Origin: Rhododendron vialii
Taxonomy: Eukaryota; Streptophyta; Magnoliopsida; Ericales; Ericaceae
Assembly: GCF_030253575.1 (NCBI RefSeq)
Contig: NC_080559.1
Location: 33,723,501 to 33,787,500 of the forward strand
DNA: 64,000 nt
Reading direction: 5' to 3'
The position numbers and the translations under genes were made by a program. This document shows, piece after piece, positions 40,979 to 44,277 of the stretch; position 1 is the stretch's first letter, and each line of letters opens with the position of its first letter. Under the pieces are notes generated by a model. That model was not told where the DNA came from. It searched no databases and saw nothing but the letters and a program-made list of their open reading frames with translations.

Positions 40979-41516
40979 GATACTCCCTTCACCCCATAAA
41001 GGCCGGATATCAATAAAGACTTAGTCGATCGCATATAAGAAGCAAAATAAGCAATTAAAATCTTATGCCGTTTGTCAATTTTTTTTGGAACAAATAATAT
41101 ATGAATATTAAACACCGATTATTACTAAATTTGATTTTTTGCATGGACGATAAGCACCTTGCAATACAACTCTTGAATCATATTTTTGGCACCGTGATAA
41201 GTCTTATTAGTAGTTTGCATTACATGAAAGAGAATCATCACGTTGGACGATCTTAATTAAGGCTCCGTTTGTTTGGGCGTAAAATGTTTTCTCGTAAAAT
41301 ATTTTACTTATTTTTCGCTGTTTGGCTAAAAAAAGGAGAAGGAAAATATTTTCAGTGTAAAATATTTTGCACCAAAAGGGTGAAATTGTTTTCCTCTTCT
41401 TTTCCCCGTAAGTCGTTTTTTTTTTCGTTGCCGTGTCTCCCGTTCCCAAACCACATAAGCCCCCCCTTCTTCCAAAACACGTACCCATCCCCTTCTCCCA
41501 AATCAAATCTAAAACA

Positions 41517-41652
41517 CGAGAGAGAGAGAGAGAGAGAGAGAGAGAGAGAGAGAGAGAGAGAGAGAGAGAGAGAGAGAGAGAGAGAGAGAGAGAGAGAGAG
41601 AGAGAGAGAGAGAGAGAGAGAGAGAGAGAGAGAGAGAGAGAGAGAGAGAGAG
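41517..41652 (+). repeat. (GA)n microsatellite, ~135 bp, inside the Harbinger element
   Basis: An essentially uninterrupted GA run, the longest in the window, lies ~255 bases inside the 5' end of the transposon. Reading frames made of Arg-Glu repeats across it are artefacts. Confidence 0.95.
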
Positions 41653-42047
41653 GACGCGAGAGCTTCCTCGATCCTGCGATTCTCTACGGCACCTTCACCG
41701 GCGACCGATCACCTGCGTTCTCAACGGCGAGTACCTCCGAATTCTTCTTCCATTCTAGTTTTGAGAAAATCTATCAATTTTTTTCGATCTAATTTGATGC
41801 TTCTAATTCATATTTGATCTATGGTTAGTGAATTTCTTTTGTTTGACAGTAGTGATGTAATCTTCTTCTTATTGATTTTTTTTTGTATGTTGTGTGTCAA
41901 GTTGTTTTGTTCCCCGCTATCTGTTTGATGTATTTACTCAATGAGCTTCAGCTATTGGTTTATTCTCAGCTGATCAAACATGTGATTATATCCTCTTAGT
42001 CTATACTTTTCTCCAATAATTGTGTTTGAATTCTTTTGTTTATGTAG

Positions 42048-42552
42048 ATGGCTAATGATCAAAATGATGCTACTGTAACTGAAGTTGCAGTAATTGGAGC
42101 TGCCGCTGCAGTAATAGCTACCGGTGTTGCAATCCTAGACATTTTAAGATATAGGAATAGGACCCTTATTCCTGATATACCTAGGGCACCTCATGTCAAT
42201 AGAGACCGAGAGAGGGAGAGCTATTGATGGGACACATATCCGGGCATCAGTTCCCCTTGAACTTCAAGGGAGGTTTCGTGGGCGAAAGGGATGGACATCG
42301 CAAAATGTTTTAGCAGCCATCACTTTTGACCTCAAGTTTGTATATGTACTTGCTGGTTGGGAGGGCTCAGCACATGATTCCCGTATCTTGAATGATGCAA
42401 TTTCGAGGCCCAGGGGGCTTCAAGTCCCTGAAGGTAATTTTTTTGCCCTAGGACTTTTAGTTGGATAGCATTATTGATAAAACTGAGCAGACACATGACA
42501 TTAGGGTTTTTTTTTTTTTGTAGGTAAATACTACCTTGCTGATTTTCTTTAG
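42048..42552 (+). pseudogene. PIF/Harbinger transposase (HARBI1-like), internally deleted
   Basis: The frame opens MANDQNDATVTEVAVIG and reaches PHVNRDRERESY, the usual N-terminus of plant Harbinger transposases. At about 42217-42224 it jumps straight to AIDGTHIRASVPLELQG, so the whole middle part (typically well over 100 codons) is missing, and the join shifts frame and gives a stop. Both sides share GCTAT at the join. The nuclease part keeps the first two catalytic acids (AIDGT and GSAHDS). A GT/AG intron (42434-42523) leads to GKYYLAD, then a stop at 42550-42552; the third catalytic residue is lost. No active enzyme can result. Confidence 0.88.
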
Positions 42553-42753
42553 ACTGTTCCTTTTTTATTTCTTTTCTTTTCTTGAGACTGATTATATAAG
42601 ATTGAGGCTGTTAGTTTTCCAAATCAGTTTATATATGTTGATCAGACTGTTTTTTTTAGTACTTGGTGCTCTACTGGTTTGCTCCTTTTTGCTTTTATGA
42701 ATGAGTTCGATGGATTAGAATTTAATCATGGAATGTGATTTGTGGTATTAGAT

Positions 42754-43694
42754 ATGAGCAAAAAAAGTGAATCCAGGGGCAAACAATTTAGGTGGTCAAA
42801 ACCCATGGAGCGTGTGTTGTTGGAAGTTCTTGCCGATGAGGTGAAAATCGGGAATAGACCTAACAACACTTTTAGAACAAGCTCATTCAATCGGGTGTCG
42901 AGTGTCATATTTGAGAAATTCAACATTGAATGTTCATCGGATCATGTTGAACATCATCTTAGAACTGTGAAAACTGCATGGGGTATCATAGCTCAACTTC
43001 GGGATAAATCTGGATTTGGATGGGATGACAACATGAAGATGATAATTGCTAGTCCAACTGTCTACACAGAACATGTTCAGGTGCCATTCTTAAGTTATTT
43101 TACTCTCTATTGGCTTAAGTTTCTAGTCTTTTTTTAAAACTTGTTAGTGTAACTTTTATTGCTTGAAAATAGGCACATCCAACTCATGAAAAGTATCTTA
43201 ACAAGAAGATTGAAATGTATGAAGAGATAGCTTTAGTGGTGAACAAAGATCGTGCGAAAGGAAATTTTGCTAAATCATTCAATGATGTTGACTTGGATAT
43301 TGAACCAATAAATTCGGATGCTGACATTGCCATTGAAGACATCTCTAAGGACAAGAATGCGGGAAAACAATCCGCATCCTCAAGTGAAACTTTTGCCCAA
43401 CCAAGACGTCATCGCAAGCGTGGTCGTGATACTCATGATGAGGAGTCGGATATCAAAACAATTTCAGAAAAGCTTGGGCAAGTTGCAGATGCAATTACTA
43501 GGCTGACATGGGATAGGCTTGATGTTCAAGCTCTTCATGATGAACTGATGAAGATGGAAGGTTTTGATGAGGCTTTTCTAGGCGAGGCTTTTGATTATTT
43601 GGTTGAGCATGAAAGACTTGGGAAGGCATTTATGGCGAAGAGCATTAACCTCCGAAGGATTTGGCTTGAAGATTTTAGCAGCCATAAATTTTGA
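42754..43694 (+). CDS. Harbinger ORF1: Myb/SANT-like DNA-binding protein
   Basis: Two exons, 42754-43080 and 43173-43694, give 282 residues. Residues ~10-110 form a Myb/SANT-like domain: FRWSKPMERVLLEVLADEV, then TSSFNRVSSVIFEKFN, HHLRTVKTAWGIIAQL and SGFGWDDNMKMI. The rest is acidic with a basic patch PRRHRKRGRD, a likely nuclear signal, and a helical C-terminus. In PIF/Harbinger elements this protein binds the transposon ends or partners the transposase in the nucleus. The frame is open and both splice sites are canonical, so the protein may still be made although the transposase is dead. A domesticated host gene is less likely, because the element's ends are intact around it. Confidence 0.85.
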
Positions 43695-44277
43695 AGTGAA
43701 TTATATCTAGTGTTCTATGACTTACCTGTTCTTGTTGCTAGTAGCATATTTTTTTTGTTAAAAAATCTTATTTGTTGCAAGGGTTGATTTGTATTTCAAT
43801 TCCGATGGTAACGATGGATAATTGGGTTATTTAGTTGATGCTTTAGTTATTTGCATGAAATTGATCTTGGGTTATGCTCAAAGATGGATCTGGAGAGCTT
43901 ATATGAATCGATTGCTTCAATATGGTTTTAAAATGCTTGGGAGGTTCTTTATCTAATTTCAAATAACAGGTTAGTGCATAATCTTTGTGTGGAAAACTAT
44001 TTTGACAACCAAACGATGGAAAATCATTATTTTGAAAAATATTTTCATGTACCAACCAAACACCGGAAAATAAAAGTTTGAAGTTTGTTTTCTGAAAAAA
44101 CATTTTACATTGTAAAACATTTTACATTGAAACAAACGGAGCCTAAGTTTCGAATGCCGCCGACAGCTGAAATTTGAAAAGTTGAAACAACTCCAATTGC
44201 ATCATTCATGGAAGCGAAGGTAGGTCATGTGCGGAATGTGATGGACGTACAAGCAAGTGTTTCTCATGACATGAAGG

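Follow-up and report, generated by a model that had tools for sequence, protein, structure and literature searches.

The standard PIF/Harbinger transposon encodes two proteins, an ORF1 product that binds and a transposase that cuts (available text of PMC2836001 and PMC9921582). A 64-kb stretch of the Rhododendron vialii genome (C3:33723501-33787500; henceforth the window) contains an element of this kind in which the transposase is broken while ORF1 is open. The question raised by this locus is whether ORF1 has been kept after its transposase was lost, as the original prediction suggested in speaking of selective survival of the end-binding protein, or whether the element is open in one gene simply because it was crippled recently. 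All coordinates are positions in the window, and the assembly used for genome-wide searches totals 532.6 Mb and has 13 contigs.

Structure of the element

The features of the element are listed below; C12, C10, C11, C9 and C4 denote sibling copies elsewhere in the assembly.

41258..41260, unstranded: left target-site duplication (TSD), TAA
41261..44143, plus: the whole PIF/Harbinger deletion derivative, 2883 bp, with the transposase followed by ORF1, both on the same strand
41261..41274, plus: 5' terminal inverted repeat (TIR), GGCTCCGTTTGTTT, exact
41518..41653, plus: (GA)n tract in the 5' leader
42048..42217, plus: transposase exon 1 remnant (MANDQ...NRDRER)
42218..42224, plus: deletion junction 1, the 7-nt GAGCTAT, which in C12 and C10 flanks the missing stretch on either side
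42218..42433, plus: transposase exon 2 remnant (AIDGTH, AHDSR), PF13359 profile positions 1-61 of 158
42434..42523, plus: transposase intron 2, GT..AG, read from the sequence
42524..42543, plus: start of transposase exon 3, terminating at deletion junction 2
42754..43080, plus: ORF1 exon 1, Myb/SANT domain, 109 aa, with W14, W76 and W90 present
43081..43172, plus: ORF1 intron, GT..AG, with splice sites common to C12, C10 and C11
43173..43694, plus: ORF1 exon 2, 173 aa and stop, 12 nt shorter (in frame) than in C12, C10 and C11
44130..44143, minus: 3' TIR, exact GGCTCCGTTTGTTT
44144..44146, unstranded: right TSD, TAA

The TAA/TAA flanks are of the 3-bp TAA/TTA kind that characterises PIF/Harbinger insertions, and the exact 14-bp TIR (GGCTCCGTT...) has both the length (14-25 bp) and the G(N)5GTT pattern given in the accessible part of PMC2213677. 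At up to two mismatches, GGCTCCGTTTGTTT has 5 matches in the 64 kb against 0.48 expected, a number reached in 0 of 100 shuffles. ORF1 is open across its GT-AG intron, encodes 282 aa and ends in a stop; it matches Pfam PF12776 (Myb_DNA-bind_3) over profile positions 1-95 of 96 (E 8.7e-18). The transposase fragment matches PF13359 (DDE_Tnp_4) with E 3.4e-7, over positions 1-61 of 158 only. Together, the perfect TIRs, the TAA duplications and the two domain matches establish the Harbinger identity that had been proposed, and the proposed ORF1 intron and open frame are likewise as described. We regard the element as an ordinary PIF/Harbinger transposon, in which nothing falls outside published kinds.

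Two stretches are missing from the transposase. Both are present in C12 and C10, and C9 has the first and most of the second. Loss 1 (by arithmetic from positions, 445 nt relative to C12 and 448 nt relative to C10) lies between two copies of GAGCTAT, and loss 2 covers about 552 alignment columns (about 550 nt), its edges sharing 2 nt by reading. The transposase has therefore lost its centre and its end, as originally claimed, with the extent of the central loss needing correction: it runs from the end of exon 1 through the first transposase intron into the beginning of exon 2. We take AIDGTH and AHDSR in the exon 2 remnant to hold the first two catalytic D, and STVERGFGVL in exon 3 of the sibling transposases is presumably the site of the catalytic E. 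Judged by these motifs, the window transposase appears to keep the first two catalytic D and to be without the E, the deletions having removed the region upstream of the first D and the E-bearing C-terminal part; the complete D, D, E transposase of an autonomous element is thus absent. A genome search for the deletion junction, allowing up to 3 mismatches, gave a single occurrence. The search thus yielded no further copy of this derivative, and we rejected the idea of an amplified derivative.

Structural evidence for ORF1 was sought separately. Single-sequence prediction of exon 1 gave helices with a mean pLDDT of 73, and a Foldseek search of this prediction against the PDB returned no match at E <= 0.001, so that structure adds nothing to the Myb/SANT assignment. 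A sequence search of the PDB with ORF1 found no match, and in viral contigs 2 pattern matches to ORF1 relatives were found, of which 0 were confirmed. DNA binding by Harbinger Myb proteins reportedly needs three conserved tryptophans (PMC7282668, available text); ORF1 has tryptophans W14, W76 and W90, which may or may not be the equivalent ones. A 13-nt match between the end of ORF1 and the transposase (repeat D2) was taken as chance.

Elsewhere in the window, frames at 36056-40432 on the minus strand include a PB1-like stretch (below the Pfam cut-off) and a kinase domain. Their start codon, read from the frame, lies near 40309, and the Harbinger element is located about 950 bp upstream of that start.

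Sibling copies

We used ORF1 as the query of a six-frame whole-genome search, in which 138 of 169 candidates were scored and 55 matches obtained. Among the scored candidates, at least one stretch above 80% identity to ORF1 was found at six loci (the window, C12, C10, C11, C4 and C9); C11 additionally has an ORF1 stretch at 64%, and the next loci are at 62% or below. Reading 9.9 kb around each of the five sibling loci gave the following states of the two genes.

C12: ORF1 with a 2-nt deletion in exon 1; transposase with TGA in exon 1, splice donor lost and second D changed to E
C10: ORF1 with TGA at codon 157; transposase with exon 1 interrupted by 2.6 kb and with exon 3 containing stops
C11: ORF1 with several frameshifts and a TAG; transposase reduced to one short fragment matching the exon-3 query
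C9: ORF1 without about the first 214 codons; transposase exon 1 with a 1-nt insertion and a TAG
C4: ORF1 without about the first 196 codons; no match to the transposase queries

An open ORF1 is thus found in one of the six near copies (the window copy) and a usable transposase in none of them. C9 is a mirror image of the window copy: the front of its ORF1 is deleted and its transposase is more complete. A gene that is broken in all five other near copies, and that in C9 lost its front while more of the transposase was kept, does not show the selective survival claimed for ORF1. The siblings also differ at their margins: the flanks are GAA/GAA at C12 and TAC/GTA at C4, and the (GA)n tract of the window copy exceeds those of C12, C9 and C4 by about 90 nt (the leader of C10 lies outside the alignment).

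To look for an intact transposase, the C9 exon-3 protein was used as a query, and 150 of 294 candidates were scored. The near copies C9, C12 and C10 matched at 91-100%, and partial matches with internal stops were found at C3:9086439 (81%) and C11 (60%). The remaining matches among those scored are at most 56% identical, many with open frames, and are members of other Harbinger families. Three of them (C12:30300380, C5:30908412 and C8:29658459) had no end within 3 mismatches of the window TIR in the 5.0-5.5 kb read; a helper element with similar ends may exist among the others. The relative with these ends and a full transposase, for which the original prediction proposed a search, was hence not found intact among the near copies in the candidates scored.

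Fragments resembling ORF1 occur in other settings as well. On C6, at 4.65 and 4.68 Mb, two open frames of 183 and 185 aa (L044:4631-5179, minus; L045:4781-5335, plus) resemble the C-terminal half of ORF1, with identities of 47% and 42%, respectively, in one search and 54% and 50% in another. Seemingly duplicated exons of a cyclic-nucleotide-gated channel lie 0.8-0.9 kb upstream of them on the same strand; Pfam cNMP_binding was found in the exon scanned (that at L044), and a Pfam scan of the two frames themselves gave no match. They are possibly captured ORF1 pieces under some constraint. More matches to the ORF1 C-terminus (L046-L050) are located at C9:33.47 Mb, C5:4.71 Mb and C7:32.69-32.74 Mb, where the ORF1 protein searches reported no match to the Myb half.

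Substitutions in the two genes

Private substitutions were counted in one MAFFT alignment, without the diverged C11 and including of C10 only the 3' side of its interruption. The window copy has 12/802 in ORF1, 2/352 in the transposase remnants and 26/1080 in non-coding sequence (ORF1 vs. non-coding, P 0.19; remnants vs. non-coding, P 0.027). Masking 3 nt around gaps changed these values to P 0.30 and P 0.06, and including C11, unmasked, to P 0.067 and P 0.060. The remnants have therefore changed no faster than ORF1, which again fails to support its selective survival. In C12 the corresponding figures are 13/803 for the broken ORF1 and 27/1076 for non-coding sequence; as the non-coding divergence of the two copies is equal, the window copy is not younger by total branch length.

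Nonsynonymous:synonymous changes, without C11 and leaving out the short ORF1 stretches of C9 and C4, are distributed as follows.

Window copy: ORF1 5:7 (one codon accounts for two of the five nonsynonymous changes); remnants 0:2
C12: ORF1 11:2; remnants 8:4
C10: ORF1 16:6; remnants 3:0
C9: remnants 6:4

With C11 in the set, the C9 and C4 ORF1 stretches have 0:1 and 2:0, and C11 itself 26:14. Relative to a neutral nonsynonymous share of 0.767, the window ORF1 is low (P 0.0095), a result that weakens to 4:4 and P 0.09 when C11 is included. Both genes of the window copy together (5:9) give P 0.0013 against the neutral share and a Fisher P of 0.012 against C12, C10 and C9 combined (44:16), values to be read as those of a comparison picked post hoc, on a single MAFFT alignment, with 14 coding changes of which two fall in one codon. 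ORF1 copies elsewhere look neutral (C12, C10), which is the decay that had been named as a sign against selection. As for the dN/dS comparison suggested for ORF1, its own branch is indeed low in nonsynonymous changes, but the remnants are low as well, and no difference between the two was resolved (P 0.51).

These counts suggest that the lineage of the window copy was functional for more of its branch than the sibling lineages seem to have been. Since change is low in ORF1 and in the remnants alike, most of the constraint would date from before the loss of the transposase; because the two are not distinguishable, it is possible that constraint on ORF1 continued past that loss.

Matching ends and related MITEs

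Genome-wide, the 14-mer GGCTCCGTTTGTTT occurs in 974 exact copies, 499 on the plus and 475 on the minus strand, compared with 0 for its reversed control, so relatives with these ends, whose existence had been posed as a check, are abundant. One lies in the window:

53632..54048, minus: MITE belonging to the element's family, in inverted orientation and matching the element end for end

Its left end is 89% identical to the 3' end of the element over 97 nt and its right end 71% identical to the 5' end over 114 columns. It is flanked by TTA on the left and AAA on the right (no clean TSD), and despite these mismatched flanks the end-for-end match places it in the element's family, the kinship that had been supposed. 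In a sample of about 100 of the 974 places, 18 had a second exact end, facing the first at short distance. Identical 3-bp flanks were found in 10 of these 18 relatives (9 of them TTA or TAA) and not in the other 8. The best partner of each of the 18 and of the window MITE reaches 69-88% identity, in three cases across a short stretch, and these MITEs thus look old. A whole-element DNA search (40 of 1250 candidates scored) found short derivatives closer to the element, for example that at C3:34487235-34487598, with 89% and 95% identity to its two ends; at several MITE-like places the identity is 92-96% across roughly the final 110 nt of the element. There would hence be no shortage of ends for ORF1 to meet, and binding of ORF1 to MITE ends is plausible by analogy with rice Ping and zebrafish Harbinger3 (PMC2836001, available text). 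At another locus (L068, C2:11955770-11956265) three exact TIRs lie within 500 bp, seemingly a MITE nested in a MITE.

Origin of the present state

We consider it very probable that the element was functional until recently and then lost its transposase, with ORF1 open through recency and not upkeep. An ordinary two-gene PIF/Harbinger transposon, working until fairly recently, would have inserted at a TAA site; its transposase would have suffered two internal deletions after insertion, or just before the last jump, at least one of them between short direct repeats, leaving the present non-autonomous deletion derivative. ORF1 would have stayed open because it lay outside the deletions and has since had too little time to acquire a disabling mutation, without being kept by the host or the family. 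We infer this order and timing, and the lack of a present role for ORF1, from several observations: ORF1 is open in 1/6 and the transposase usable in 0/6 near copies, C9 presents the mirror case, the coding changes of both genes stand at 5:9 and the deletion junction is single. Against recent crippling, ORF1 has changed at a rate like that of non-coding sequence (P 0.19), the nonsynonymous deficit weakens with C11 (4:4, P 0.09) and the only private indel of ORF1, the 12-nt deletion, is in frame, as in a kept gene. The original prediction had allowed, as a fallback, that the element could simply be young, and by the sibling comparison this is the better reading; selective survival of ORF1 is unsupported by the sibling copies, the private substitutions and the nonsynonymous:synonymous counts.

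Two other histories have to be weighed. ORF1 might have been kept after the transposase was lost, either as a TIR-binding regulator or repressor of relatives such as the MITEs or as a protein under domestication. The low nonsynonymous count on its own branch (5:7, P 0.0095 without C11; 4:4, P 0.09 with it), the open frame with its splice sites and W14/W76/W90, the in-frame private indel, the abundance of target ends and the existence of domesticated Harbinger Myb proteins such as ALP2 and HDP2 (PMC7282668, available text) all fit this history, but the transposase remnants have changed no more than ORF1 (2/352; 0:2), all five other near copies have a broken ORF1 and one copy of the derivative was found in the assembly. 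Moreover, the perfect TIRs and TSD, which a domesticated ORF1 would be without, show that the window element remains a transposon insertion rather than an old gene. We therefore think it distinctly unlikely that ORF1 was kept; its stronger form, a single-copy transposase-less Harbinger in which a selected ORF1 sits on the ends of hundreds of related MITEs, acting as a repressor or marking a first step to a host DNA-binding gene, we consider very improbable. It is also highly unlikely, in our assessment, that the copy drifted neutrally for as long as its siblings and stayed open by pure chance. Its private non-coding divergence (26/1080) does equal that of C12 (27/1076), its ORF1 rate (12/802) equals that of the broken C12 ORF1 (13/803), and in a simulated neutral branch of equal length ORF1 was stop-free in 48% of histories, frameshifts not being counted. 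The requirement to be free of frameshifts pushes this figure lower still, however, and the low nonsynonymous share of both genes (5:9, P 0.0013) is unlike that of the siblings counted. Recent crippling of a working element remains our preferred reading.

Relation to known systems

In the available text of PMC2213677, the transposase of Medicago group A elements has one or two introns and precedes ORF1; their ends show G(N)5GTT, one subfamily contains a microsatellite, and copies with internal deletions occur. The window element resembles MtPH-A6 of that study in its G(N)5GTT TIRs, 3-bp TAA/TTA TSD, intron-bearing transposase followed by ORF1, internal-deletion derivatives and microsatellite, although the microsatellite is (GA)n in the 5' leader here and (TA)n in an intron there. 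It differs from the Medicago elements in its TIR sequence, compared with the consensus TIRs in that text, and from MtPH-A6 in that the Rhododendron assembly yielded no copy in which both genes are intact. With rice Ping/Pong/mPing it shares an ORF1 Myb protein, a DDE transposase and MITEs with common ends, but rice coding copies have been shown to mobilise mPing, whereas every near copy found here has a broken transposase (PMC2836001 and PMC9921582, in the portions available). Domesticated Myb partners are known (PMC7282668, PMC9710019, in part). Like ALP2, HDP2 and NAIF1, the window ORF1 is an ORF1-type protein without its element's transposase; unlike ALP2, described in the accessible text of PMC7282668 as a conserved single-copy syntenic host gene, it lies within perfect TIRs and a TSD. 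Among titles and abstract beginnings on ORF1 or non-autonomous Harbingers we found no report of an ORF1-only Harbinger, which is no proof of absence, and a literature search with the first 11 letters of the TIR gave, by title, no transposon paper.

The locus illustrates clearly that selection need not be behind an intact partner gene whose transposase is dead: both genes have decayed in the sibling copies, and what is left of the dead one provides a built-in yardstick. If it were true that ORF1 is kept, the element would give a view of the first step in the domestication of a Harbinger DNA-binding protein.
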